DNA of 32,805 bases from Fidelibacterota bacterium (lineage in GTDB: Bacteria > Pseudomonadota > Alphaproteobacteria > Rhodospirillales > Rhodospirillaceae), in contig CAMDOZ010000016.1 in the NCBI GenBank assembly GCA_945903705.1, positions 1 to 32,805 of the forward strand, written 5' to 3'. Positions 2,682 through 29,485 of the stretch are shown piece by piece. Positions within the stretch are counted from its first letter, which is position 1. Every line of letters starts with the position of its first letter. The notes beneath the pieces are model-generated. The model was not told where the DNA came from. It did no database searches and saw only the letters and a program-made list of their open reading frames with translations. The translations under genes were made by a program, and so were the position numbers.

Positions 2682-5600
2682 ATGGATCTCGCCGGCAAAT
2701 TGGCGCGCCAGGCGCCTTCAGATATCGCGGACGCCACTGCAGAAGCGGCGCGGGCGGAACGTCTGCGCGCGTTGCTTACGCCGTCGTCCTTCTGGTCGCC
2801 GCTCTATCTTGAGGAATCCGCCTGGCTGGATCACGGCGCATTCGCCTTTTGGCTGATCGAGGCGATCCGCCCCCGCAGCTTCGTCGAGCTGGGCACGCAC
2901 GGCGGCTACTCCTACTTCACCATGTGCCAGACGGTGAAGGCGCTGGGCCTTGCGACCCGCTGCTACGCCGTCGACACCTGGCAAGGCGATGAGCACGCGG
3001 GCTTTTACGGCGAAGATATCTACCGCCGCGTCCACGATCACAATGAACGCCACTACGCGTCCTTCTCGCGTCTGGTGCGCGCGACTTTTGCAGAAGCACT
3101 TGCGCACTTTCCCGATGGCTCCATCGACCTCCTGCATATCGACGGCCGGCATTTCTACGAGGACGTGAAGGAAGACTACGAAACCTGGCGCGTGAAACTG
3201 TCGGACCGCGCCGTGGTGATCTTCCATGACATCAATGTCCGCGAGCGCAATTTCGGGGTCTTCAAACTGTGGGAAGACCTGAAGAGCCAGTATCCCACCT
3301 TCGACTTCTTGCACGGCCACGGCCTCGGTGTGCTTGGCTACGGAAAGAATCTGCCCGCGGGAATTCTGCCGCTGCTCGAGGCCGCCAAGGATCCCCAAGC
3401 GCTCATCGATGTGCGCCAGGCTTACGGCCGCCTGGGCGCCGCCTTCAAGGCGCAGTTTGAATCGCAGCAGGTGCGCGAGGACCTAACCGGCAAGTGGCAC
3501 GCGCAGAAGGCCTGCGCGGAAGCTTTGGAAGGCGAAAACCGCGACCTCGCCGCACGTTCGAAACAGCACGTGGACGAGCTGACCGCCGCCTGGAAAGCGC
3601 AGGGTGAGCGCGCGAGCGCGCTGGAAGCGGAAGCACGAGAGCTCGGCCGCCAGCTGACCACACAAGCCAATGCCCTGAACGCCCAGATCAAGGCTCAAGC
3701 GAAAGCGCTGAACGCGCAGATCGCCGCCGTGACCGAAAGCATGATCGTTCAGATTCGCGCCCATGAGCACCGCTCAGAAGCGTTGCAGGCCCAGGTGGAC
3801 GCGAGGGACCTAGCGATATCGCGTCTCCAGACATCATTCAGCTGGCGCGTCACGAAGCCGTTGCGGTTTGCGAGCCGGCTGGCTGGAAAGATGCTGCGCT
3901 CGCTGCGCCGCCCGGTGCGCGTCGTCGGGGGCCTCGTCTACCGCTTCACGCCGCTACCGGTGTCCGTCAAGGCCCGGATCGTCAGCATGCTTCTGCACCT
4001 CTTCGCGCCGGTCGTGCGCAACACAAGTTTCTATACATTGTGGTTTGAGTCGCGCCGGCGCGCGGCCCAGGCGTTGCTGCCGGGCGAAGGGTCAAGAAAT
4101 CTTCCGAAGGAAGTGGCCCGCGCGATCGAGATCGACTACAGCGCGGCCGTACCTTTCGTGTATGTGACCACCGAGGTCGAAGCGCCTCGTCTTGCCGTGT
4201 TCCTGCACCTTTATCACGAGAGCCTCACGCCCGAGTTCCAGCGGTATCTCGGGAATATCCCCTTCCCCTTCGATCTTTTCATCACCACCGACAGCGCGGC
4301 GAAAGCCGGCATCATCACCAGGGCCTTCTCCGGCTGGGACAAGGGACAAGTAGAGGTGCGCGTCACGCCGAACCGCGGCCGCGACATTGCGCCGAAGCTG
4401 CTCGGGTTCCGCGAGATCTACGATCGCTATTCGTTCGTTCTTCATCTGCATTCCAAGATCTCCGATCACTCCGGCGCCCTCGCGAACTGGCGCGGTCTCC
4501 TCCTGGAAACCCTGCTTGGATCGCCCGAGATTGTCGGCAGCATCTTCGATGCCTTCACGCGCCGATCCGACGTCGGCATGATTGCCCCGCAGCACTTCGA
4601 AGCCGTACGCCACTGGATAAACTGGGGCGGTAATTTCAAGATTGCCGAAACCCTCGCCCAGCGCATGGGCGAACACTCGCTCTCCATGGATAAGCCGCTG
4701 GACTTCCCCTCGGGCTCCATGTTCTGGGCGCGCTCGGCGGCGTTGAAACCGCTGCTCGATCTCAATCTCACCTTCGAGGATTTCGACGAAGAAAAGGCGC
4801 AGATCGACGGCACGATCGCCCACGCCATCGAGCGCCTCTACTTCTATGTGTGCGAGCGGGCCGGGTTCGGATGGATGAAGATTGCTTCGCGGGCGCTCTA
4901 TACGCAGACTCCTTGCATCGTCACCATCGACACCCCCGCCACCTTGAGCACCTTCGTCAACGAATGCGGCCTGAAGCTTACGGGACCGACTCTTCCGCCG
5001 CAGCGCGAGGCTCATCCCACGCCAGTGCTGGCGCCGCGCATCGTCGTCGATCGGCTGCAGTACAAGGCTCTCGGCTGCGACGTCGAAGTGGATCCGACGG
5101 CGAAGGTCTGCATCGGCATCGTGACTTACAACAATTCGGCAGCGCAGTTGCGCCGCGTGGTCGATAGCGCGCGCCATGCCCTCAAGCGGGCGGGCCTTGC
5201 TGCCGGAGCGCGCATCAACCTCATCGACAATGGGACGGCGTCGGAGATCCTGGTGCGGGAGGCCGGCGCGGGCGGCGATCTTCTGCATTATCTGCCGTCG
5301 GCCGGAAATATCGGCTTCGGCGCAGGACACAACCGTCTGATGACCGATTGGTTCGCCGCCGGCGGCGAGTTCTATATCGCCGCCAATCCCGACGGCGCCT
5401 TTCATCCGGACGCGATCATCGCCCTGATGCAGATGATGCGCGCGCACCGCAACCGCGCACTGATCGAAGCGATTCAGTTCCCAGCCGAGCATCCCAAGGT
5501 CTACGATTCCTATACATTCGAGACTCCATGGGCCTCCGGCGCCTGCCTCGTCATTCCCCGCGCGCTCTTTGATCAGACCAACGGGTTCGACGAAACCTTC

Positions 5601-5918
5601 TTCATGTACTGCGAGGACGTGGACCTCTCATGGCGGGCGAAGGCCCTGGGCTTCGCGGTGCGGATATGCCCGCGCGCCTTGTTCCTGCATGAGGTCACCA
5701 ACCGCGAGCCGGAAGCGCGTGTGCTGAAGATGATCTACGGCTCAGGCGTCATCCTCGCGCGGAAGTGGGGCAATCCCGACTTCGAAGCGATGCTGATCGG
5801 CGAGCTCGAGGACATCGGCGGCAAAGCGCCTCCGGGCCAGCCGGGCCCCGTCCCGGCCGACTGGCGCCGCCTTGCCGATTTCAAGCATCACTTCACCTTC
5901 GCCGAGATGCGCTGGTAG
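2682..5918 (+). CDS. fusion protein: methyltransferase, coiled coil, RgpF-like domain, GT2 glycosyltransferase
   Basis: This is a 1078-residue cytoplasmic polysaccharide-assembly protein. Residues about 1-235 form a class I SAM methyltransferase (FVELGTHGGYS at 67-77, then LLHIDGRHFYEDV and VIFHDINV). Residues about 255-395 are Glu/Gln/Ala-rich heptads typical of a coiled coil, followed by LQTSFSWRVTKPLR, a linker common in such enzymes. Residues about 500-765 match the RgpF rhamnan-synthesis type (LHLYHESL, NRGRDIAPKLLG, LHLHSKIS, SGSMFWAR). Residues about 805-1060 are a GT2 domain with IGIVTYNN, NPDG (902-905) and the acidic motif EDVD (978-981). No membrane segment is evident. The ATG at 2682 is the natural start though its ribosome-binding site is weak. 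The gene leads a tight set with a second GT2 and an ABC exporter. By family knowledge the methyltransferase could modify or cap the glycan, and the RgpF and GT2 parts would add sugars such as rhamnose; this is inference. Confidence 0.9.
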   Translation: MDLAGKLARQAPSDIADATAEAARAERLRALLTPSSFWSPLYLEESAWLDHGAFAFWLIEAIRPRSFVELGTHGGYSYFTMCQTVKALGLATRCYAVDTWQGDEHAGFYGEDIYRRVHDHNERHYASFSRLVRATFAEALAHFPDGSIDLLHIDGRHFYEDVKEDYETWRVKLSDRAVVIFHDINVRERNFGVFKLWEDLKSQYPTFDFLHGHGLGVLGYGKNLPAGILPLLEAAKDPQALIDVRQAYGRLGAAFKAQFESQQVREDLTGKWHAQKACAEALEGENRDLAARSKQHVDELTAAWKAQGERASALEAEARELGRQLTTQANALNAQIKAQAKALNAQIAAVTESMIVQIRAHEHRSEALQAQVDARDLAISRLQTSFSWRVTKPLRFASRLAGKMLRSLRRPVRVVGGLVYRFTPLPVSVKARIVSMLLHLFAPVVRNTSFYTLWFESRRRAAQALLPGEGSRNLPKEVARAIEIDYSAAVPFVYVTTEVEAPRLAVFLHLYHESLTPEFQRYLGNIPFPFDLFITTDSAAKAGIITRAFSGWDKGQVEVRVTPNRGRDIAPKLLGFREIYDRYSFVLHLHSKISDHSGALANWRGLLLETLLGSPEIVGSIFDAFTRRSDVGMIAPQHFEAVRHWINWGGNFKIAETLAQRMGEHSLSMDKPLDFPSGSMFWARSAALKPLLDLNLTFEDFDEEKAQIDGTIAHAIERLYFYVCERAGFGWMKIASRALYTQTPCIVTIDTPATLSTFVNECGLKLTGPTLPPQREAHPTPVLAPRIVVDRLQYKALGCDVEVDPTAKVCIGIVTYNNSAAQLRRVVDSARHALKRAGLAAGARINLIDNGTASEILVREAGAGGDLLHYLPSAGNIGFGAGHNRLMTDWFAAGGEFYIAANPDGAFHPDAIIALMQMMRAHRNRALIEAIQFPAEHPKVYDSYTFETPWASGACLVIPRALFDQTNGFDETFFMYCEDVDLSWRAKALGFAVRICPRALFLHEVTNREPEARVLKMIYGSGVILARKWGNPDFEAMLIGELEDIGGKAPPGQPGPVPADWRRLADFKHHFTFAEMRW

Positions 5919-5920
5919 CC

Positions 5921-6790
5921 ATGTCCGAACAGATCGACACCGTCGTCCGTTTCCACGACATCCGCCGCCTGGCGGAGCTCAAGCGTTGCGTCTTTTCGCT
6001 GGCCGGACAGACCTATAAGGCCGTGCGTATCGTCCTTGCGCTTCAGCGTTTCAATGGCGAGCAGATCGAGGCTGTGGAACAGGCCCTGCGCCCCTTCCTG
6101 CAAGGCCGCGATGCTCCAGAGCTTGCGATCGTCAACCTGACCAACCCGGAGCCCGCCGACGCCCGCTCGGTTCTCCTCAATCTCGGGATAGAGAACGCGA
6201 CGGGGAAATACCTCGCGTTCCTGGATTACGACGACGTGCTCTATCCGGAAGCGTACGAAATGATGATCAGCCGCCTCAAGGACACCGGCGCGGCGATCGC
6301 CTTCGCCAAAGTCCGCGTCATGCGCATCGACGTCTATGACGAGTTCTTCTACACGAAGGAGCGGGTGGTCACGCCCTACAGCGGGTCCGATCTTCTGGAC
6401 CTGTTCCACAACAACTACTGCCCCTTGCACAGTTACGTGATCGACCGCTCGCAAGTGCCGGCCGACATGCTGCGCTTCGTCACCACTCTGACGCTGGAGG
6501 AAGATTACGACGTGCTGTTGCGCATCACGTCCGCTTTCCTCTCGGACTTCGCGCTCGTTGAAACGGACATCGGCGACTACTACTATAAGACAGACGGCAG
6601 CAATACGGTGCCGGTGGGCGGCCTGGTTGGCGAGGCGCGCCTCAAGTTCATCCGCGAAGCGAAGACCGCCATTGAGACGCGCCGTCGCGGTACCATCGTC
6701 GTGCCGGTGGTGCAGAAGTCCATAGGCCTTCGCGATCCCAATCAACCCCGCACCATCCGTCAGGTGCTCGATCGCATGCCCGCGCGGTGA
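5921..6790 (+). CDS. GT2-family glycosyltransferase
   Basis: This is a 289-residue GT-A fold glycosyltransferase of family 2, expected to transfer a sugar from a nucleotide donor onto the growing glycan in the cytoplasm. The metal/nucleotide site is visible as FLDYDDVLYP, the usual D-x-D-D form, preceded by GIENATGKYLAF. EEDYDVLLRI further on supplies the second acidic motif. The frame is open upstream into the preceding gene, but ATG 5921, two bases after that gene's TAG stop, gives a normal GT2 N-terminus, so translation is probably coupled. The stop overlaps the next gene's GTG as GTGA. The sugar and linkage cannot be assigned from sequence. Confidence 0.87.
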   Translation: MSEQIDTVVRFHDIRRLAELKRCVFSLAGQTYKAVRIVLALQRFNGEQIEAVEQALRPFLQGRDAPELAIVNLTNPEPADARSVLLNLGIENATGKYLAFLDYDDVLYPEAYEMMISRLKDTGAAIAFAKVRVMRIDVYDEFFYTKERVVTPYSGSDLLDLFHNNYCPLHSYVIDRSQVPADMLRFVTTLTLEEDYDVLLRITSAFLSDFALVETDIGDYYYKTDGSNTVPVGGLVGEARLKFIREAKTAIETRRRGTIVVPVVQKSIGLRDPNQPRTIRQVLDRMPAR

Positions 6791-7629
6791 CAAAGATCCC
6801 GATGCGCGCGCACGCCTCCACTCCGCTCGACCGTCCGATGGACCTTCTTGTTCCCATCGCGGTGCTGCTGCGCCAGCGCGTGGCCTACCGCCAGTTTTTG
6901 ACGCGCGCCATCACACGGCGCTACCGCATGAGCAGCCTGGGCTTTCTGTGGACGATGGTGATCCCCCTTGCAACCCTGGCCATCTACACATTCGTGTTCG
7001 GCGTGGTGATCCCGGTCGAGAACGTCGACACCACGACGTTCACCTTGAGGCTGTTCTCGGGCCTGATCGTGTTCTGGCTCATGGCGGAAGTGGTCACCCA
7101 GTCGCCGGGCTCCGTCGTCGAGCAAACCAACCTCGTCAAGAAATCGGTGTTCCCGCTGGAGGTGATCCCCGCCGTCGTGGTCGGCACGGGCCTGTTTCAC
7201 TGCCTGGTGAGCACCTCCGTGCTCGTGGCTGCGCTCGTCGTCTTGGGCAAGCCTCTCCATCTCACCATGATCCTCTTCCCGGTCGTGGTCTTTCCGCTGG
7301 CCCTCTTGCTTTTGGGGGTCGCCTGGCTGCTGGCCGGCATCGGCGTCTATTTCCGCGACCTCACCCATATCGTTGGTCTTTTGATGACGGCGGCCTTGTT
7401 CCTATCGCCGGTGTTTTATCCGGCTGAACGGCTTTCGCCCGGTTTACAGCGGGGCATCATGTTCAATCCCGTCAGCGTCATCGTCGAAGAAGGCCGCAGC
7501 GTCCTGTTGGACGGACGCATGCCCGATTGGCGCCGGCTCGCCGTCTACTTCGTCATCGCCTGGATGATCGCAGCCCTTGGTCTCGCGTTCTTCCGCCGCG
7601 CCCGCAAGAATTTCGCCGATGTCCTCTGA
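6787..7629 (+). CDS. wzm: polysaccharide ABC exporter, permease (Wzm type)
   Basis: This is a membrane permease of the ABC-2 family, 280 residues, with about six hydrophobic segments: FLWTMVIPLATLAIYTF, LFSGLIVFWLMAEVV, VVVGTGLFHCLVSTSVLVAAL, LFPVVVFPLALLLLGVAWLLAGI, HIVGLLMTAALFLSPVFY and YFVIAWMIAALGLAFF. The conserved elements YRQFLTRAITRRYRMSSLG before the first segment and GVYFRDLTHI before the fifth are typical of O-antigen and teichoic-acid exporters. It should form a dimer with two copies of the ATPase encoded next and move a lipid-linked glycan across the inner membrane. The start is GTG 6787, overlapping the upstream stop (GTGA); in-frame ATGs at 6802 and 6838 are alternatives, and the last begins just before the amphipathic N-terminal helix. 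It overlaps the ATPase gene by 11 bases. Confidence 0.92.
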   Translation: MTKIPMRAHASTPLDRPMDLLVPIAVLLRQRVAYRQFLTRAITRRYRMSSLGFLWTMVIPLATLAIYTFVFGVVIPVENVDTTTFTLRLFSGLIVFWLMAEVVTQSPGSVVEQTNLVKKSVFPLEVIPAVVVGTGLFHCLVSTSVLVAALVVLGKPLHLTMILFPVVVFPLALLLLGVAWLLAGIGVYFRDLTHIVGLLMTAALFLSPVFYPAERLSPGLQRGIMFNPVSVIVEEGRSVLLDGRMPDWRRLAVYFVIAWMIAALGLAFFRRARKNFADVL

Positions 7630-8959
7630 TCCTTCTCCCGTTGTCGTCGCGCGCGACATCGCCAAGAGCTATACGCTCTATCCGCGCCCGTCGGACCGCT
7701 TTGCCCACCTGTTCATGCCGTGGCGCAAGTATCCGACGTTCGATGCGCTAAAGGGCGTCACCTTCACCGTCGAGCGTGGTGAGACCGTCGGCATTATCGG
7801 CCAGAACGGCGCCGGCAAATCCACACTCCTTCAGCTCGTCACCGGGATCGTCGCCCCCACAGCGGGTGAAGTGCACGTCAGCGGGCGGGTGGCCGCTCTT
7901 CTGGAATTGGGCGCGGGATTCGAACCGGACTTCACGGGGCGCGAAAACATCCTGCTCAACGGGACGATTCTCGGCCTCTCCAGCCGCGAGCTGAAGGAGC
8001 GTACCGACGCGATCATTGCGTTTTCCGAGCTGGGGCCTTTTATCGATCGCCCGGTACGCACCTACTCGAGCGGCATGTTCATGCGCCTTGCCTTCTCGGT
8101 GGCGGCCCACGTGGACGCCGACCTTCTGATCATCGACGAAGCGCTCTCGGTCGGCGACGTGCGTTTCACGCAGAAATGCCTGCGCTTCCTCAAGAACTTC
8201 AAACAGCGCGGCTCCATCCTGTTCGTGAGCCATGACCTCGGCTCGGTGACCGGACTCTGCGACAAAGCCATCTGGCTGGACCATGGACGTGTACGCGGCG
8301 AGGGACCGGCCATCAAGATGTGTGAACAGTACGTCGGCTCGCTTTTCGAAGGAGCGACGTTCAATACGCCGGTCACGCACGCGCACCGAGAACCGGCGAA
8401 AGAGATCAACGGAGAAATCGTTCTCCTGGACGACGAAGCACCGCCGCGGGGCTCGAAGCCCGGAACGACGAGCATTTCCGCGTTCAATCCCGAAGGCAGC
8501 TCCTTCGGCAGTGGTGGAGCGGCCATCATCGACGTGGGCCTTTTCTCACCGGCCAACGGACAGCGTCTGAGCCAAGTCATCGAAGGTCAAGAGATCGACC
8601 TCCGGATACTGGTGAAAGCCGACGTGACCGTCGAACGGCCGATTATGGGATTTTATGTGAAGGACCGGCTGGGTCAGTTTCTGCTCGGCGACAACAGCTA
8701 TTGGGACACGGTGCCCCAGCCGCCAATTCCCGCTGGAGAGAGATTAGCTTTTCGCTTCCGGTTCAACTGGCCCGCCCTTGCGCGCGGCACCTACACACTT
8801 ACGGTCGCGCTCGCCGACGGCATCATGGAAGATCATATCCAACGCCACTGGATCCACGATGCCGTGATCTTCGAAGTGCTGTCGAGTTCGTCGCGCCTTG
8901 CGCTGGTAGGCGTGCAGCTCCGACGCGTGCTGGTGGACCGCAATCCGGCGGAGGCGTGA
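7619..8959 (+). CDS. wzt: polysaccharide ABC exporter, ATPase with C-terminal glycan-binding-like domain (Wzt type)
   Basis: This is the nucleotide-binding subunit of the exporter, 446 residues from ATG 7619, which sits inside the permease's last codons; the frame is open further upstream but that part has no homology-like content. The ABC domain spans about residues 10-240: Walker A GQNGAGKST (61-69), signature YSSGM (about 150), Walker B LLIIDEALSVGD (about 170) and switch histidine VSHD (about 203). An acidic linker follows. Residues about 300-435 form a beta-rich domain (AAIIDVGLFSPANGQ through YTLTVALADG) of the Wzt C-terminal type. In E. coli O8/O9a systems this domain binds the finished, capped end of the O-polysaccharide and selects it for export. 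Its presence argues that the glycan made here is completed and end-marked in the cytoplasm. Confidence 0.93.
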   Translation: MSSDPSPVVVARDIAKSYTLYPRPSDRFAHLFMPWRKYPTFDALKGVTFTVERGETVGIIGQNGAGKSTLLQLVTGIVAPTAGEVHVSGRVAALLELGAGFEPDFTGRENILLNGTILGLSSRELKERTDAIIAFSELGPFIDRPVRTYSSGMFMRLAFSVAAHVDADLLIIDEALSVGDVRFTQKCLRFLKNFKQRGSILFVSHDLGSVTGLCDKAIWLDHGRVRGEGPAIKMCEQYVGSLFEGATFNTPVTHAHREPAKEINGEIVLLDDEAPPRGSKPGTTSISAFNPEGSSFGSGGAAIIDVGLFSPANGQRLSQVIEGQEIDLRILVKADVTVERPIMGFYVKDRLGQFLLGDNSYWDTVPQPPIPAGERLAFRFRFNWPALARGTYTLTVALADGIMEDHIQRHWIHDAVIFEVLSSSSRLALVGVQLRRVLVDRNPAEA

Positions 8960-8982: not shown

Positions 8983-9978
8983 TCACGATGCCCCGGAACG
9001 GCGGTCGACCCGTACGAGCGCTGTCTTCCTGAGGAACGCCACCGGATTCCAACTGATCCAATAGCCGGCATTGGCCAGTGGAGATCGCTGCTTGCGAACG
9101 ACGCGCCGTGCTTTCAGAAATTCCGCGGTGCCAATGAGTCCGGCCCACAGGCCTTTCATGCGCGCCGATCCAGGATGCCTCACAAGTCCAATAAGTTGCA
9201 GAAGCACGAATCCCGGCAGCGCGAAGCATAAAAGGGTAAGGGGCATGTTCTTGACCAGCACCCACCATTGGTTTCGCGCGATCAAGAAGGCCGCAAAATC
9301 GGAGAGGCCCTCGAAGCTCGCTCCGCCCACGTGAGAAACGACGGCCGCCGGCACCACCGCGCATTCGGCGCCGGCAAGACGCAAGCGGAAGGCGACGTCG
9401 ACGTCCTCGTAGAAGCAGAAGAACCGTTCGTCGAAGCTACCGACTTCGCGCAGGAGACCCGTGCGATAAAGAGCCGCGGCGGCGCAGACGCCGAAGCTAT
9501 AGGCAAGATCGCCGTGAGTTGGGGGTCTCGTCCGTCCGCGCCAGGCCTGGCCGCAGATCAGGTAATGATCGCCGAAGCCGTCGATCCGCCCAGGGTTGTC
9601 CGCCGCAAGCTGCATCGATCCGAAGGCGGCGACATGCGGATAACGATCGGCGGCGCGGAGAAGGTTCGCGAGCCAAGCGGGCTCCGGGAAGGCGTCCGGA
9701 TTGAGCGCCGCGAGGAAGGGAGTTTCGCAAGCCTCGAGCGCGACATTCATTCCGCCCGCAAAGCCAAGGTTTTCGTCCATCTCGCGGTAGTCGACGGGAA
9801 ACGGGAGGCTTTGGATCAGGGCCACCGGCCGCTCACGCGAGGCGTTGTCGATAAGGATGACGCGGAAGTTCTGTTCGCTCTGGGCAGCGAGGGCCGCAAG
9901 GCAGCGCGGGAGCGTTGCACCGGAGTTGTAGCTCACTATTGCGATAGTGACTCTGGCGGTCGCGACCGGCGCGGTCAT
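8983..9978 (-). CDS. GT2 glycosyltransferase, rhamnosyltransferase-like
   Basis: This is a 331-residue family 2 glycosyltransferase of the WbbL/rhamnosyltransferase type. Visible motifs are VTIAIVSYNSG (donor-binding start), DNASRERP, ENLGFAGGMN, NPDAF (93-97, the D-x-D equivalent) and YEDVDVAFRLRLAG (190-203). After the catalytic part comes a hydrophobic stretch, PLTLLCFALPGFVLLQLIGLV, near residues 257-277, a likely membrane anchor or re-entrant helix. It is the last gene of the dTDP-rhamnose operon, its start one base from the rmlA stop, which strongly suggests dTDP-rhamnose as its donor (inference from context). It converges on wzt with a 23-base gap. Confidence 0.88.
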   Translation of the reverse strand: MTAPVATARVTIAIVSYNSGATLPRCLAALAAQSEQNFRVILIDNASRERPVALIQSLPFPVDYREMDENLGFAGGMNVALEACETPFLAALNPDAFPEPAWLANLLRAADRYPHVAAFGSMQLAADNPGRIDGFGDHYLICGQAWRGRTRPPTHGDLAYSFGVCAAAALYRTGLLREVGSFDERFFCFYEDVDVAFRLRLAGAECAVVPAAVVSHVGGASFEGLSDFAAFLIARNQWWVLVKNMPLTLLCFALPGFVLLQLIGLVRHPGSARMKGLWAGLIGTAEFLKARRVVRKQRSPLANAGYWISWNPVAFLRKTALVRVDRRSGAS

Positions 9979-9979
9979 T

Positions 9980-10855
9980 TTATGGGTTCGGGTTTTCAGC
10001 GACTTGAATCAAATATTGACCGTAGCCGCTCTTTGTCAGCTTCTCGCCCAGGGCGATCAATTGCGCCTTATCGATCCAGCCGTTGGCGAAAGCGATTTCT
10101 TCCGGCACGCAGATTCGCTGGCCTTGGCGCTTCTCGATGGTCTGCACGAAGCTCGAGGCTTCCACCAGACTGTCGTAGGTACCGGTGTCGAACCAGGCGA
10201 AGCCGCGGCCAAGGCGCTCGACATTGAGGCCTCCGCGCTCGAGATAGACGCGGTTGACGTCGGTGATCTCGAGCTCGCCCCGCGCGCTGGGTTTGAGGTT
10301 CGCCGCGATGTTCACGACGTCATTGTCGTAGAAGTAGATGCCGGTCACGGCCCAGCTGGACTTCGGCGCCTCCGGCTTTTCTTCGATGGAATTTGCGCGG
10401 CCCGCACTATCGAAGGCGACAATGCCGTAGCGTTCCGGATCGCGGACCTGATAGCCGAACACGGTGGCGCCCTTCCCACGCGCGGCGGCGGCCTTCAGTT
10501 TTTCCGTGAGACCGTGGCCATAGAAAATGTTGTCACCCAGAACGAGCGCACAACTCGAATTGCCGACGAACGACTTTCCGATGATGAAGGCTTGCGCAAG
10601 GCCGTCGGGGCTCGGTTGCTGTGCATAAGTGAGATTTATGCCCCACCGCTTGCCGTCGCCCAGCAGGTGTTGAAACCCGGCCGCTTCGTGGGGCGTGGTG
10701 ATGATAAGGACGTCGCGGATTCCGGCGAGCATCAAGGTGCTCAGCGGATAATAGATCATCGGTTTGTCGTAGACCGGCAGGAGCTGCTTGGACACCGCAT
10801 AGGTGATTGGGTGCAGGCGCGTTCCGGAGCCTCCGGCGAGGATGATTCCCTTCAT
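9980..10855 (-). CDS. rmlA: glucose-1-phosphate thymidylyltransferase
   Basis: RmlA makes dTDP-glucose and pyrophosphate from dTTP and glucose-1-phosphate, the first step of dTDP-L-rhamnose synthesis. The protein has 291 residues, the normal length. The nucleotide-binding signature [18 protein letters not shown] starts the protein, with [20 protein letters not shown] following. The sugar-binding loop contains [14 protein letters not shown], and the metal-binding region [13 protein letters not shown] is intact. [15 protein letters not shown] and [11 protein letters not shown] are also typical. In this family the enzyme is allosterically inhibited by dTDP-rhamnose. It sits 23 bases after rmlD and one base before the GT2 gene in the operon. 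Confidence 0.97.
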
Positions 10856-10878: not shown

Positions 10879-11778
10879 TTAGTGCGGTGCGGCCGCAAGG
10901 GTTTTCGCCAGCATCTCCTTGAGGGCGTCTTCCCAGGGGCGCTGCATAATGCCGTGAATACGGCCTATTTTGCTACAGTCGAGGACGGAGTTGGCCGGCC
11001 GTTTTGCGGGCGTCGGGTATTCGGCGGTGGTGATGGGCTCGACTTTCGGTCGGCGGCCAAGGTCGCGCGCCGCGAGGTCAAAGATCTTTTCGGCAAAGCC
11101 GTGCCAGCTGACCGCGCCGCCGCCGGTGTAGTGGAAGGTCCCGTAAGCCTCTTCCGGCAAGGTTTCGCCGATGAGGCGCCGCGCGAGCACAATCAGCGCG
11201 TCGGCGAGATCGGCGGCAAAGGTGGGTGAACCGCGCTGGTCGTCCACCACACGCAGGACATCCCGCTCCCGCCCAAGGCGCAGCATGGTCTTTACGAAGT
11301 TGTGGCCGTGTTCGCCGTAGACCCAGGCGGTGCGCACGATAACGTGGCGGTCGAGAAAGGCGCGCACGGCAGCTTCGCCCGCGAGCTTGCTGTCACCATA
11401 GATTCCGATCGGCGCGGTGAAGTCCTCCTCCATGTAGGGGTCCTTGGCGGCGCCGTCGAACACATAGTCGGTCGAGATGTGGACCAGGGGAATTTCCCGG
11501 GCCGCGCAGATGGCGGCGAGGTGGCCGGGACCGTCACGATTCACGGCGAAGGCCCGCTCCTTGTCGGTCTCGGCCTTGTCGACTGCCGTATAGGCGGCGG
11601 CGTTGATAACGATTTGCGGTCCGGTCGCCGCGACGACGCTATGAACGGCTTTGTTGTCGGTGATATCGAGTTCGAGCTTGCTGAGGGCCTTGACCGAAAG
11701 CCTGGCAGCCGCCGCGCGGCGCTCGATCTCCCACGCAACCTGGCCGCCGGCGCCGGTCAGCAAAATGTCCGGCTTCAC
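10879..11778 (-). CDS. rmlD: dTDP-4-dehydrorhamnose reductase
   Basis: RmlD reduces dTDP-4-keto-L-rhamnose to dTDP-L-rhamnose with NAD(P)H, the last pathway step. It is a 299-residue short-chain dehydrogenase fold: Rossmann loop TGAGGQVA near the N-terminus, [21 protein letters not shown] and the catalytic pair YGDSK (Tyr-x-x-x-Lys). The frame runs open up to 11889 inside rmlB, but the GTG at 11778 is the natural start: it gives [13 protein letters not shown] and overlaps the rmlB stop as GTGA, which implies translational coupling. The C-terminal part ([28 protein letters not shown]) is the usual substrate-binding region. Confidence 0.95.
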
Positions 11779-12857
11779 GCGGTTTTTCTCGAAGACGTTG
11801 TTTCCGAAGACGACGAGAGCCCGAGGCGCTGACCGGCGTAAGTGCCCGAACGGATCTTGGTCCACCACGGACGATTGGCGAGATACCACTCCACGGTCTT
11901 GCGCAACCCGGTGGCGAAGGTTTCCCGCGGGCGCCAGCCGAGTTCGCGGCCGATCTTGGAAATGTCCATGGCGTAGCGGGCGTCGTGGCCGGGTCGATCG
12001 GTGACGAAGGTGATGAGCTCGCGGGCGGACTTGGGCCCTGGAGCAAGCTCATCCACCAAATCGCAGATCGCGCCGACCACATCGATGTTCTTGTATTCGG
12101 CTTCGCCGCCTACGTTGTAGACCTCGCCGAGGCGGCCCTTTTTCACGACAGTCCATAAGGCGCGGGCGTGATCCTCAACATAGAGCCAATCGCGCACATT
12201 CGAGCCTGTGCCATAGACCGGCAGCGGCTTACCTTCGAGCGCGTTCAGGATCATGAGCGGAATCATTTTTTCGGGAAAATGATACGGCCCGTAATTGTTC
12301 GAGCAGTTGGTGGTGACGACCGGCATTCCGTAGGTGTGATGCCAGGCGCGCACCAGGTGATCGGACCCCGCCTTCGACGCGGAGTAGGGAGAGTTCGGCG
12401 CGTAGGGCGTGGTCTCGGTGAACAACCCTTCCGGGCCCAGGGAGCCATACACTTCATCGGTCGAGATGTGATGAAAGCGGAAGACGTCCTTGCGCGCTCC
12501 CGGCAAGGCGTGCCAGTAGGCGCGGGCGGCTTCCAGCATGGTGTAGGTGCCGACGACATTGGTCGTGATAAATGCGGCGGGTCCGTCGATCGAGCGGTCC
12601 ACATGGCTCTCGGCGGCGAGATGCATCACCGCGTCGGGCTGTTCGCTCGCGAAGAGCTGCGCCATCGCCGGCGCATCGCACACATTGGCTTGGACGAACT
12701 TGTAATATTTTCTGTCGGATACGGGTGCGACGGAATCGAGATTGCCGGCGTAGGTGAGCGCATCGACGTTAACCACGTCGACCTTCTCCTCGCCCGCGAG
12801 GAGCCGGACAACCGCCGAGCCGATGAAGCCCGCGCCGCCTGTAACGATAACCTTCAT
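11775..12857 (-). CDS. rmlB: dTDP-glucose 4,6-dehydratase
   Basis: RmlB converts dTDP-glucose to dTDP-4-keto-6-deoxyglucose, using bound NAD+. The protein has 360 residues and is an extended short-chain dehydrogenase. [12 protein letters not shown] at the N-terminus is the NAD+ loop. [12 protein letters not shown], the active-site segment STDEVYGSL (with the family's catalytic Asp-Glu pair) and [10 protein letters not shown] (Tyr-x-x-x-Lys) follow, then [13 protein letters not shown] and YVEDHARAL. All key residues expected for the family are present. The C-terminal Ser/Thr-rich tail ([15 protein letters not shown]) is slightly longer than usual. AGGG lies about 7 bases before the ATG. The gene follows rmlC by 19 bases and overlaps rmlD. 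Confidence 0.97.
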
Positions 12858-12876: not shown

Positions 12877-13434
12877 CTAGAAGTAAACCGGCAGATCGGC
12901 GAAGCGCGGCTGCACTTTGTCCTTGGCCGAGAGTATCGCATCGGCCTCGGCTATGGGCCATGCGATACCAAGGGCTGGGTCATTCCACAACAGGCCCAGG
13001 TCATGCGTCGGCGAGTAATAGTTGGTCACTTTATATAGGACCTCGGTATCGGGCTCGAGGGTCAGAAGCCCATGGGCAAAGCCCGTGGGGATCAGGATCT
13101 GGTTCCACTCTTCCGCCGAGATCACGGCGGAAACATGACGGCCGTAGGTCGAGGATCCACGTCTCAAGTCTACCGCGACGTCGAAGATGGAGCCTCTGGT
13201 CACGCGGATCAGCTTGTCTTGCGAGAACGGCGGCGTCTGAAAGTGCAGACCCCGGACGGTGCCCTTGGCCGCGGAGAAGGCGTGGTTATCCTGCACGAAG
13301 GTGAGATCAATGCCGGCGCTGGAAAGAGCCTTCTGGGAATAGGTCTCGGAAAAGAAGCCACGCGCATCGCCGTGCTTTTTGGGGCGGATGATCTTCACAT
13401 CGGGAATGGCGAGGGTCTCGATCGTCACGGACAT
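12877..13434 (-). CDS. rmlC: dTDP-4-dehydrorhamnose 3,5-epimerase
   Basis: RmlC epimerises dTDP-4-keto-6-deoxyglucose at C3 and C5. The protein has 185 residues, the usual size for this cupin-fold enzyme. Recognisable parts are DARGFFSETY, FVQDNHAFSAAKGTVRGLHF (with the catalytic-region His), KLIRVTRGSIFDVAVDLRRGS (which holds the family's catalytic Asp region), IPTGFAHGLLTL and EVLYKVTNYYSP (the Tyr that acts as acid). The ORF continues upstream into the preceding gene, but ATG 13434 gives the canonical N-terminus MSVTIETLAIPDVKII. It starts 13 bases after the stop of the GT-C gene and is followed closely by rmlB. Confidence 0.96.
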   Translation of the reverse strand: MSVTIETLAIPDVKIIRPKKHGDARGFFSETYSQKALSSAGIDLTFVQDNHAFSAAKGTVRGLHFQTPPFSQDKLIRVTRGSIFDVAVDLRRGSSTYGRHVSAVISAEEWNQILIPTGFAHGLLTLEPDTEVLYKVTNYYSPTHDLGLLWNDPALGIAWPIAEADAILSAKDKVQPRFADLPVYF

Positions 13435-13447
13435 ACGTGTCTCCAGC

Positions 13448-28069: not shown

Positions 28070-29485
28070 ATGCCGGCCATGGAAAGATCCGAGGCGGACG
28101 TCTTGGCCGACCTTGCCTTGCAGCACTACGAGCGCCGGGAGTTCGCCGCCGCCGAGGAAACGCTCGACCGGCTGGTGACGTTGGCGCCCGCCCGCGTCGA
28201 TCTCACCACCTACCGCCTCCTGGCGAAACTGAAAAGCGCCGGCGGTGGACCGGACAGCGCGCGCGCTGTGATGCAGGGCGCCTTGCAGGCCCACCCGGGC
28301 CGGACCGAGTTCGTCGCGGCCTATGCGGATACGCTGGCGCCCGAAGAAGCGATCGCTACCCTCGAGCAACACTTGGCGGACGTACGCACCGACCCGAGCC
28401 GCGCCGCCTATCTTCTCCTTCGCATGACAAGCATCCGTGCGCCGCTCGCGCGGCGCGCAACGGGGCTGCCGCCCGACCACGGACTTTCCTGGCGCGACAC
28501 TTTTCAGTGGCCGGATGCCGCAGCACTACCGGCCTTGAAGGCGGCGCTGCAGGCGGAAATCGCCATGGGCTCCAAACGCGCGACTGCGCGCCTCGACCTC
28601 GCCTATATCGCCGTCTCAAACGGCGACTGGGAAACGGTAGAAAAGTATCTTGCCGAACTGCGCGGCGGACCCAAACGCACACCGGCAGATTTTACGGCCT
28701 TCGGCGCGGCGTTTCATGCCGGCCTCGACGCGATGACCGATGCAAACATCGTCTCTGGATTGGCGCCGGTCCAGCGTCTCCTCGACGGGCGCGCGGCGGA
28801 TGAAAAGCTGTTCATGGCGAGCGACCACAGCTACTTCGCGACGTTCACCTTGCCGTTCCTGCGCCAGCTCGAGGCGATGCAAATCCCGGTCGCGGTCCAT
28901 GTGCATCTTCTCGACGGCGGGAACTCTGAATGGACCGAGGCGCGCGGCCTGCTTGGCGCCCTCAAGCACGTCGCGGCCACATTGACCGCGGAAGCTTCGG
29001 GGGCATCCGCGCAAGGCCGTGTCTACGCGCGCAACTACTATCACGCCGTGAGATATGTCCGGTTCTACGAAGAACTGACCCGCGGGCGAACGCGGATGTG
29101 GATGCTGGACTGCGACGTGCAGTTGCTCCGCGATCCGCGGCCGTTCCTTGCCTCACTGGGCCCCCACGATCTCGCGCTTCGGACAAACCCGTGTTCGTTC
29201 GAACCGATGCTGAAGATCACGGCAAGCTGCGTGGGCATTGTGCCGACTAGCAAGGGCCTTGAGTTTGCGCGGCGGGTCGCGGCCTCCATCATCCACTGGA
29301 AGAACCGCGGATCCTGGAGCTGGGGCGTCGATCAGATCGCGCTGTTTTCCGCCTATGCACATATGAGCGCACAAGGCCGCGAGCCCGCGACGCTCTATCT
29401 CGACAACCTGGCCATGAACGACAAGGTCGGGGACACCGGCACCATCCGCTTCATGTCGGGGATGGACAAGTTCGTGACGCGTTAG
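28070..29485 (+). CDS. TPR-like plus glycosyltransferase-like protein, unassigned
   Basis: I do not recognise this 471-residue protein as a named family. Residues about 5-210 are helical with TPR-like pairs (LALQHYERREFAAAEETLDRL, LARLDLAYIAVSNGDWETVEKY). Residues about 225-470 look like a GT-A nucleotide-sugar transferase: FMASDHSYFATF, VAVHVHLLD, RFYEELTRGRTRMWMLDCDVQLL with D-x-D at 347-349, LALRTNPCSFEP, CVGIVPTSKG and SWSWGVDQIALFSAY, the last resembling the closing 'W..DQ..L' motif of GT8/GT-A enzymes. There is no signal peptide or membrane segment. It could be a protein or glycan glycosyltransferase. The start may be ATG 28070 or 28079. Its TAG stop shares TTAG with the convergent S4 gene. 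Confidence 0.7.
   Translation: MPAMERSEADVLADLALQHYERREFAAAEETLDRLVTLAPARVDLTTYRLLAKLKSAGGGPDSARAVMQGALQAHPGRTEFVAAYADTLAPEEAIATLEQHLADVRTDPSRAAYLLLRMTSIRAPLARRATGLPPDHGLSWRDTFQWPDAAALPALKAALQAEIAMGSKRATARLDLAYIAVSNGDWETVEKYLAELRGGPKRTPADFTAFGAAFHAGLDAMTDANIVSGLAPVQRLLDGRAADEKLFMASDHSYFATFTLPFLRQLEAMQIPVAVHVHLLDGGNSEWTEARGLLGALKHVAATLTAEASGASAQGRVYARNYYHAVRYVRFYEELTRGRTRMWMLDCDVQLLRDPRPFLASLGPHDLALRTNPCSFEPMLKITASCVGIVPTSKGLEFARRVAASIIHWKNRGSWSWGVDQIALFSAYAHMSAQGREPATLYLDNLAMNDKVGDTGTIRFMSGMDKFVTR

Follow-up and report, generated by a model that had tools for sequence, protein, structure and literature searches.

Does a single polypeptide cap a surface glycan, measure its length and synthesize it? 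The question is raised by the gene at 2682-5918 of the window, the whole stretch of 32,805 nucleotides that was analysed. For its product, the first-pass annotation had proposed a ruler, capper and polymerase joined in one chain. The reading now regarded as probable is that one chain combines a methyl capper, a coiled-coil ruler and a portion of a rhamnan polymerase. Domain order, folds, the heptad linker, the gene neighbourhood and a tryptophan in the methyl pocket of Wzt constitute its computed basis.

A fused gene beside a Wzm/Wzt transporter

The following features were assigned, with the evidence given in parentheses.

2682..5918, + strand: fused methyltransferase, coiled coil, RgpF and GT2 protein, 1078 aa (Pfam, alignment, AlphaFold2 model)
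2742..3431, + strand: methyltransferase domain, Methyltransf_24, COMT-like fold, aa ~21-250 (Pfam, alignment, model, Foldseek, VIA)
3432..3833, + strand: heptad-repeat linker, predicted coiled coil, aa 251-384 (AlphaFold2 helices, COILS-like score, hydrophobic period)
3834..3866, + strand: conserved motif SxSWRxTxPxR closing the coil, aa 385-395 (two alignments)
3867..4073, + strand: basic helical stretch, aa 396-464, putatively membrane-associated (sequence and model helices)
4140..4991, + strand: RgpF-like domain, GT-A-like, aa ~487-770 (Pfam, Foldseek against K4CP)
5094..5813, + strand: GT2 domain, GT-A fold, aa ~805-1044 (Pfam, model, Foldseek, VIA)
5921..6790, + strand: separate GT2 glycosyltransferase (Pfam 6.1e-11)
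6787..7629, + strand: Wzm, ABC-2 permease (Pfam 1.5e-19)
7577..8959, + strand: Wzt ATPase with C-terminal carbohydrate-binding domain (CBD), start likely the ATG at 7619 (Pfam, ABC_tran 5.6e-21 and Wzt_C 1.3e-32; PDB 8dku)
8501..8896, + strand: Wzt_C domain, Trp425 codon at 8849-8851 (aligned with A. aeolicus W362)
8983..9978, - strand: GT2 that may act as an adaptor enzyme or transfer a branch sugar (Pfam 9.4e-23)
9980..10855, - strand: rfbA (rmlA) (TIGR01207 above cut-off)
10879..11790, - strand: rfbD (rmlD) (TIGR01214 above cut-off)
11775..12857, - strand: rfbB (rmlB) (TIGR01181 above cut-off)
12877..13440, - strand: rfbC (rmlC) (TIGR01221 above cut-off)

Open reading frame, Pfam and model agree that methyltransferase, coil, RgpF and GT2 lie in a single chain, as annotated before, in the order Methyltransf_24, heptad linker of about 134 residues, RgpF and GT2. 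Pfam also bore out the statement that a second GT2, Wzm and Wzt with a C-terminal domain directly follow, so that an ABC transporter with a carbohydrate-binding domain adjoins the fused gene. Since rml genes are present in the window, rhamnose is the presumed donor sugar. A phmmer search of the 1078-residue protein against PDB sequences gave no match.

Among 74 related loci, the order Methyltransf_24, RgpF and GT2 is kept by 23 ORFs and is therefore not a chance run. These ORFs stem from other records, by which a chance fusion or a misassembly was ruled out. A separate GT2 gene adjoins 21 of them, and the remaining two run to the end of the sequence. Wzm was detected around 13 and rml genes around 14, many of the contigs being short. 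Azospirillum sp. TSA2s, a non-pathogenic relative, has this cluster too, its ortholog being at L024.

Polymerase-type modules are found C-terminal to the coil. The RgpF match (residues 499-728, E 1.7e-51) covers only positions 267-502 of the 503 in the profile, and the GT2 families at about 915-1013 score under the curated cut-offs of Pfam. By structure, the C-terminal GT2 part has a clear GT-A fold (VIA Z 19.4-21.9). With Foldseek, the counterparts of RgpF and GT2 were the paired GT-A domains of polymerases already described, the chondroitin polymerase K4CP being aligned over 617-687 columns with a best E of 6e-14; for RgpF the fold assignment rests on the full-length model. Because of the separate GT2 gene next to 21 of the 23 homologous ORFs, an arrangement resembling that of K. 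pneumoniae O7, it is probable that the polymerase is not contained entirely in the fused chain. The proposal of a capper, ruler and polymerase in one chain was upheld for the heptad helices, but probably not for the extent of the polymerase.

In other related loci, the N-terminal modules are swapped. Methyltransf_23 precedes RgpF-GT2 in L046, and Methyltransf_11 precedes GT2 in L058, L063 and L064. The N-termini of L065 and L150 had no match among PDB sequences.

Linker and methyltransferase domain

The coiled coil had been placed at residues 255-395 with a length of about 140 residues. Length and position were close, but 251-384 fits the helices and the motif at 385-395 better. In the AlphaFold2 model the region in question, a stretch of low confidence, is made up of two long helices (238-317 and 326-383) with a heptad period rather than of a compact domain, the outcome that the first-pass annotation had named as speaking for its reading. 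Against the preferred reading, pLDDT falls from 75 to 39 in the coil region of this model, which was folded as a monomer only. An extended coiled coil between the putative terminator and the glycosyltransferase modules is accordingly present as a prediction of low pLDDT.

Sequence periodicity points in the same direction. In the window linker the hydrophobic period is 3.56 residues (shuffle p 0.022), and the COILS-like score indicated a coil over residues 276-356; residues 1-33 and 810-843 were also flagged under core weighting. Of 22 homologues tried, 19 linkers could be measured, all with a best period of 3.48-3.58, and in 16 of these 19 related and hence not independent rows the shuffle p was 0.05 or lower. 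A coil outside the catalytic domains was scored in 24 of 28 homologues versus one of eight control proteins from the window, a histidine kinase. By this score four homologues have no linker coil, which counts against the preferred reading; the methyltransferase is present in L045 and L059, and none was matched in L038 and L047. For indel phase as a test of the heptad, close pairs were too few. The linkers of the window protein and of L003 differ by 11 residues, apparently through an internal 11-residue repeat.

The Methyltransf_24 match spans residues 68-184 (E 6.3e-26), and an E-L-G motif and H-I-D-G...H-D are invariant across 21 aligned rows of the domain. Its model (pLDDT 91.3) was confidently assigned a catechol-O-methyltransferase fold by Foldseek and VIA. 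Among the O-methyltransferases matched are COMT, SafC and MeT1; TrmR, an RNA enzyme, is also one of the nearest folds, which counts against the preferred reading. An HMM of the domain gave no match to PDB sequences.

In Pfam searches no kinase was found in the 1078-residue protein, and according to the alignment and the AlphaFold2 model the linker helix begins immediately past the methyltransferase, leaving no space for one. The latter criterion matters because the kinase of K. pneumoniae O7 was itself an unannotated segment (PMC11231755). A methylphosphate cap as made by WbdD of E. coli O9a was rejected on these two grounds. Of the parallel to WbdD of E. coli O8/O9a drawn earlier, the combination of methyltransferase and coil stands, but the likeness does not extend to the O9a type.

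A putative methyl pocket in Wzt

In Aquifex aeolicus WzmWzt, the CBD, a homologue of that in the window Wzt, reads 3-O-methyl mannose or rhamnose (PMC9445017). The tryptophan stacking on this cap is retained in the window Wzt (Trp425, corresponding to W362). Of the methyl pocket formed by Leu300, Thr346, Ala348 and Trp362 in A. aeolicus, three of four residues are kept (Thr, Ala, Trp); Leu300 is replaced by Tyr according to our reading of the alignment, which counts against the preferred reading. The tryptophan is found in 12 of 13 CBDs adjoining a Methyltransf_24-RgpF-GT2 gene. The exception, L057, with the fused gene and a Wzt lacking Trp, likewise argues against the preferred reading.

Sixty sampled Wzt loci were compared by residue type. 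A methyltransferase is encoded within 1 kb of 20 of the 29 Trp-type CBDs versus one of the 20 Arg-type CBDs, and a sulfotransferase within 1 kb of none of the 29 versus seven of the 20. For Methyltransf_24 alone, the two-sided p value of Trp versus Arg was 0.069 for a distance of 1 kb and 0.015 for 9.5 kb, and in the phylum sample alone the one-sided p was 0.24. The Fisher tests assume independent loci, which the tree contradicts, since both types form large clades with about four changes each; the comparison of residue types thus has few independent changes behind it, and the p values overstate independence. Judged from the sequences, pocket and Trp/methyltransferase association appear to lend independent support to a methyl cap.

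Proposed mechanism and alternatives

A terminator, a coil and a polymerase in one chain is a format already in print for K. pneumoniae O12 WbbB and O7 ORF6 (PMC11231755). O7 ORF6 resembles the window protein in its N-terminal methyltransferase, central coil and two C-terminal rhamnosyltransferase modules, and the O7 locus in having one further glycosyltransferase as a separate protein and Wzm/Wzt. In O7 ORF6, however, methyltransferase and coil are separated by a kinase and a CBM, and methylphosphate is the group added (PMC11231755), whereas the window protein has no kinase match, its methyltransferase is of the Methyltransf_24 family and one glycosyltransferase is RgpF. WbbB likewise combines terminator, coil and two-glycosyltransferase polymerase, but its terminator is a beta-Kdo transferase (PMC11231755) and that of the window protein, putatively, a methyltransferase. 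WbdD of E. coli O8/O9a shares methyltransferase and coil, O8 being described as methyltransferase only; it is separate from the polymerase WbdA and in O9a includes a kinase (PMC3482155), whereas here RgpF and GT2 follow in the same chain. Geobacillus stearothermophilus WsaE, which produces a 2-O-methyl cap, carries a methyltransferase and two rhamnosyltransferases in one chain (PMC2943079), as the window protein carries a methyltransferase and two glycosyltransferase domains. Wzm/Wzt and rml genes are also common to both systems, a likeness taken from the published description; the word 'coiled' is absent from that review (PMC2943079), while a coil is predicted here. In the part of PMC13168486 considered, the E. 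coli O101 protein is described with methyltransferase and coil only, without the glycosyltransferase modules of the window protein, and as needed for O-methylation of the chain, the comparison covering domain layout and role. The 2019 census (Mann, Kimber, Whitfield, Glycobiology 29:822), which PMC11231755 cites, may already list the Methyltransf_24-coil-RgpF-GT2 architecture or sulfotransferase fusions.

The mechanism set out next is inferred, as are the identity of the sugar, methylation as the cap, the action of the coil as a ruler, oligomerisation and attachment to the membrane. A rhamnose polymer would be synthesized in the cytoplasm before Wzm/Wzt exports it. With dTDP-rhamnose as donor, RgpF, the GT2 domain and the neighbouring separate GT2 would extend the chain by rhamnose at the membrane-proximal end of a coiled-coil rod, with the methyltransferase at its far end. 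Once long enough, the growing non-reducing end would reach the methyltransferase, methylation of a hydroxyl of the last sugar would halt growth, and the CBD of Wzt would recognise the methyl group and hand the chain to export. If right, the protein would add a capping enzyme family and also a one-chain format, whose natural linkers of differing length would lend themselves to asking whether glycan length is set by the coil.

The same linkers also fit another explanation. Their length varies almost threefold among homologues (83 to 241 residues) and the coil is not predicted in the methyltransferase-bearing L045 and L059, as might be expected if the methyltransferase caps but the coil is a scaffold or oligomerisation rod, and if chain length depends above all on how polymerase, capper and transporter are balanced. 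Such a dependence, on transporter:synthase stoichiometry, is described for K. pneumoniae O1/O2 in part of PMC11231755. For E. coli O9 and K. pneumoniae O12 it has been established that the length of the coil acts as a ruler (PMC11231755), and in the alignments the rod is flanked by capper and polymerase and its ends are conserved; a mere scaffold is therefore considered rather unlikely. That the methyltransferase modifies sugars within the repeat or a side group is less probable still. Methylated sugars of this kind are on record, since the O-polysaccharides of Azospirillum brasilense contain 3-O-methyl-D-rhamnose as well as 2-O-methyl-D-rhamnose, their chain position being unstated in the portion of PMC4153317 concerned. 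The predicted place of the enzyme at the rod tip, away from the polymerase, the methyl-stacking Trp of the Wzt CBD and the O101 case, in which an intact methyltransferase-coil protein is needed for O-methylation, argue against it. An incidental fusion, with an unrelated lipid, protein or small molecule as substrate, would suit the nearest folds, most of which are small-molecule O-methyltransferases, but is very improbable given its recurrence in 23 ORFs, 21 with an adjoining sugar-transferase gene, and given other methyltransferase families in the same N-terminal place.

Besides the preferred reading of a capper, ruler and partial polymerase, a wider generalization is offered tentatively, at somewhat less than even chances. 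The COMT-type Methyltransf_24-coil unit may be a movable chain-ending cassette, alone or fused to different polymerases, of O-antigen and capsule systems, with Trp or Arg in Wzt telling the cap chemistry. Trp would go with methyltransferases of several families and Arg with sulfotransferases, either fused to a coil and glycosyltransferases or encoded beside the transporter. L150 and L154 have sulfotransferase-coil fusions. Sulfate-capped glycans would then be predicted, and cap chemistry, tied to one transporter residue, would be readable from Wzt alone, even for an unstudied polysaccharide known by sequence. Methyltransf_24-coil proteins also occur with exporters lacking a CBD, for example on E. 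coli plasmids, and with other ABC proteins (L044, L045, L051); both occurrences count against the preferred reading.

Fused gene and predicted folds

A single chain carrying a methyltransferase, a linker and two sugar-transfer domains is encoded by the following reading frame.

2682-5918, + strand, fused open reading frame, 1078 residues

Pfam placed Methyltransf_24 at residues 68-184 and RgpF at residues 499-728 of the product, while GT2 models matched residues ~915-1013 under their curated cut-offs. No kinase domain was detected in the protein by Pfam, and there is no space for one between methyltransferase and linker. According to Pfam, a GT2 gene, Wzm, and a Wzt with Wzt_C domain follow downstream, and a GT2 gene is also located on the opposite strand of the window together with rfbA, rfbD, rfbB, and rfbC, each above its curated NCBIfam cut-off.

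The genome harbors one full-length copy of the fused gene, the sole other match being a 62-residue GT2 hit. Among 61 genomes searched (own, genus, family, and order), 29 gave a hit at E <= 0.001, in many cases to GT2 or methyltransferase pieces only, indicating a patchy occurrence of the fused gene. One Glycos_transf_4 gene, a candidate for the initiating enzyme, and one Wzy_C gene, a candidate ligase or polymerase, are present in the genome, each on another contig than the window. Both are compatible with an O-antigen, without proving it. At 28070-29485, the window also encodes a 471-aa protein with a TPR-like N-terminal part and a C-terminal part without Pfam name, for which no link to the cluster was seen.

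An AlphaFold2 model from a 25-row alignment (mean pLDDT 71.2, pTM 0.55) showed helices at residues 238-317 and 326-383, separated by a short break; along residues 251-384 the pLDDT drops from 75 to 39. The top PDB matches in Foldseek were to the E. coli K4 chondroitin polymerase, a two-domain GT-A enzyme (617-687 columns, E 6e-14), followed by heparosan synthase 2. Since the query TM-score over these columns was 0.14-0.16 and rmsd 21-32 A, the two domains are matched one after the other, but their mutual placing is not. From this two-domain match, RgpF appears to be GT-A-like and to partner the C-terminal GT2, the fold of RgpF being read from the full-length model. Residues ~790-1070 aligned to GT-A transferases in VIA-align with Z of 19.4-21.9 and rmsd of 2.5-4.4 A. 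The methyltransferase domain, folded alone, reached pLDDT 91.3. The nearest structures listed (Z 16.3-18.1, rmsd 2.2-5.3 A, 164-187 residues) belong to methyltransferases, among them SafC, the Mg2+-using COMT, the mycobacterial sugar methyltransferase MeT1, and TrmR, which acts on RNA. An E-L-G motif, H-I-D-G, and H-D are kept across the alignment of the family, which would fit a predicted cation-dependent O-methyltransferase.

Predicted coiled-coil linker and known systems

Linkers of 22 homologues were analyzed for hydrophobic periodicity; three were left out because the end motif SxSWRxTxPxR (residues 385-395 of the window protein), as written for the search, was absent. All 19 linkers measured had their best period at 3.48-3.58 residues, and in 16 of these rows, which are related to one another, the shuffle p was <= 0.05 (0.022 for the window). 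The shortest linker had 83 and the longest 241 residues (~12 and 36 nm at a rise of 0.15 nm per residue); that of the window has 134. With a COILS-like score, a coil outside the catalytic domains was predicted for 24 of the 28 homologues; among eight control proteins from the window, one, a histidine kinase, also scored positive. By this score no coil was obtained in four homologues, L045, L059, L038, and L047, the latter two also lacking a methyltransferase match. In the window protein, the core-weighted version also marked residues 1-33 and 810-843. Alignments show little conservation along the linker itself but conserved linker ends and a conserved end motif. A near-repeat of 11 residues (TTQANALNAQI / KAQAKALNAQI) is located at 3657-3722 of the window, with apparently one copy fewer in the homologue L003; hendecad duplication may be a route to changes in coil length.

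The coil is an established ruler in O9 and O12 [PMC11231755]. By analogy with these systems, the polymerase would act at one tip of the rod, lengthening the chain there, and the cap would be added by the methyltransferase at the opposite tip. Judging from the rml genes and the family name RgpF, the chain sugar is probably rhamnose.

Related arrangements are described in several sources. In K. pneumoniae O12, terminator and polymerase reside in a single chain, and O7 ORF6 consists of a methyltransferase-kinase, a coil, and two rhamnosyltransferase modules [PMC11231755]. WsaE combines a methyltransferase with two rhamnosyltransferase domains [PMC2943079]. For WbdD, an O8 homologue is mentioned as methyltransferase-only [PMC3482155]. 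In E. coli O101, O-methylation requires an intact gene for a methyltransferase with coil [PMC13168486]. By comparison, the window protein would unite a methyl-only cap, as in O8, with a terminator-polymerase fusion resembling that of O12, its methyltransferase being of a different family.

Related loci and module exchange

When genome contigs were scanned for the RgpF-GT2 part, 423 stretches matched; relatives are encoded in 377, and the best 80 of these yielded 74 loci. The order methyltransferase-RgpF-GT2 was found in 23 ORFs, 21 of them adjoining a separate GT2; the remaining two (L035, L043) run to the sequence end. Of the 23 ORFs, 13 have Wzm and 14 have rml genes in their locus, many contigs being short. 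Other combinations were Methyltransf_23 ahead of RgpF-GT2 (L046), Methyltransf_11 ahead of GT2 (L058, L063, L064, and, in a longer open frame, L069), Methyltransf_24 without RgpF (L059), and two RgpF domains (L050). On the symbiotic plasmid of Sinorhizobium fredii NGR234 (L022 8929-11637), in the rhamnan O-antigen region, Methyltransf_24 and two GT2 stretches form one fused protein, whose gene adjoins rml genes. An E. coli plasmid (L023 8902-11544) encodes an 880-aa protein with Methyltransf_24 and, across residues 277-768, predicted coil segments; it gave no glycosyltransferase match. Beside it are a GT2 gene and the genes of a capsule-type ABC exporter that lacks a carbohydrate-binding domain (CBD). 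In L155, the Methyltransf_24 protein has only 332 aa and ends past a coil. From these combinations, methyltransferase and predicted coil behave as a unit, standing alone or joined to varied polymerases.

A chromosomal E. coli relative (L163 13012-15744; methyltransferase 53% identical) lies in a capsule-like cluster near gsp genes; of 5426 complete E. coli genomes, 50 gave a match to its DNA. Both clusters probably belong to a capsule group. A methyltransferase gene is mentioned in E. coli group 3 capsule clusters in PMC10433991, in which the term 'coiled' gave no hit.

The same fused gene occurs in two Chlorobiaceae and an Azospirillum plasmid (L044 4567-6573, L045 12936-14981, L051 16122-17921); in these loci an ABC protein of 600-682 aa is present and Wzm gave no match. 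In a Lysobacterales MAG (L065 7676-10879) and Rhodanobacter (L068 7655-10879), GT2 is joined to an N-terminal part without any Pfam match, possibly an unfamiliar terminator; L065 has a predicted coil, and its residues 1-325 matched no PDB sequence. By annotation, a K. pneumoniae IncX3 plasmid (L162 4931-10744) contains a rhamnan-like cluster, in which a rhamnan synthesis F gene and a separate methyltransferase accompany rml genes, GH99-like genes, and ABC permease pieces.

Wzt pocket and neighboring genes

The methyl pocket of the A. aeolicus Wzt CBD consists of Trp362, which stacks on the methyl group, together with Leu300, Thr346, and Ala348; its ligand is 3-O-methyl mannose and, in modelling, 3-O-methyl rhamnose [PMC9445017]. 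In our reading of the alignment, which has a one-residue offset, the window Wzt has Trp425 at the Trp362 position, keeps Thr and Ala, and has Tyr in place of Leu300. The aligned CBD of E. coli O9a type (2r5o) is without Trp in this column. Trp is present in 12 of 13 aligned CBDs beside Methyltransf_24-RgpF-GT2 genes, L057 being the exception.

A Wzt_C search covered two overlapping genome sets, one from the class (386 genomes) and one from the phylum (397), and 60 loci were taken, 32 of the class set (strong and weak matches) and 28 of the phylum set (strong matches only). To locate methyltransferases, the Pfam models Methyltransf_24 and Methyltransf_21 were used along with an own HMM for the Methyltransf_11/23 kind.

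Table. Loci with modifying enzymes near Wzt, by residue in the Trp362 column
Enzyme and distance: Trp; Arg; other
All loci: 29; 20; 11
Methyltransferase, <=1 kb: 20; 1; 1
Methyltransferase, <=9.5 kb: 24; 5; 3
Sulfotransfer_3 match, <=1 kb: 0; 7; 2
Sulfotransferase, <=9.5 kb: 1; 9; 2

Within 1 kb, Trp and Arg loci differed for any methyltransferase (two-sided Fisher p 6e-6) and for sulfotransferase (p 9e-4); for Methyltransf_24 and Methyltransf_21 alone p was 0.069 each. An earlier, narrower count of fused Methyltransf_24 gave seven of 29 Trp loci versus none of 31 others (one-sided p 0.004; class alone 0.017, phylum alone 0.24). A later Pfam search added L103 (opposite strand) and L123, where Trp is absent and a Methyltransf_24 ORF of 261 aa is present. 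On an ATPase-domain tree of 58 of the 60 rows, window left out, ~4 changes are needed for Trp and ~4 for Arg, and the association is therefore mainly between clades. Trp is nevertheless constant in each of the two large Trp clades (12 rows with support 85/88 and 13 rows with 100/98), while the methyltransferase family varies inside them.

The sole Arg locus with a methyltransferase within 1 kb, L151, encodes a methyltransferase with C-terminal coil, which would suit a WbdD-like methylphosphate system. In L150 (10016-14848) and L154 (3611-7051), genes directly following a Wzt with Arg-type CBD combine a weak N-terminal sulfotransferase match (E 1.8e-4, below cut-off, and E 6.3e-6, at cut-off, respectively), a predicted coil, and glycosyltransferases in one chain; these fusions are candidates for sulfate-capping rulers.
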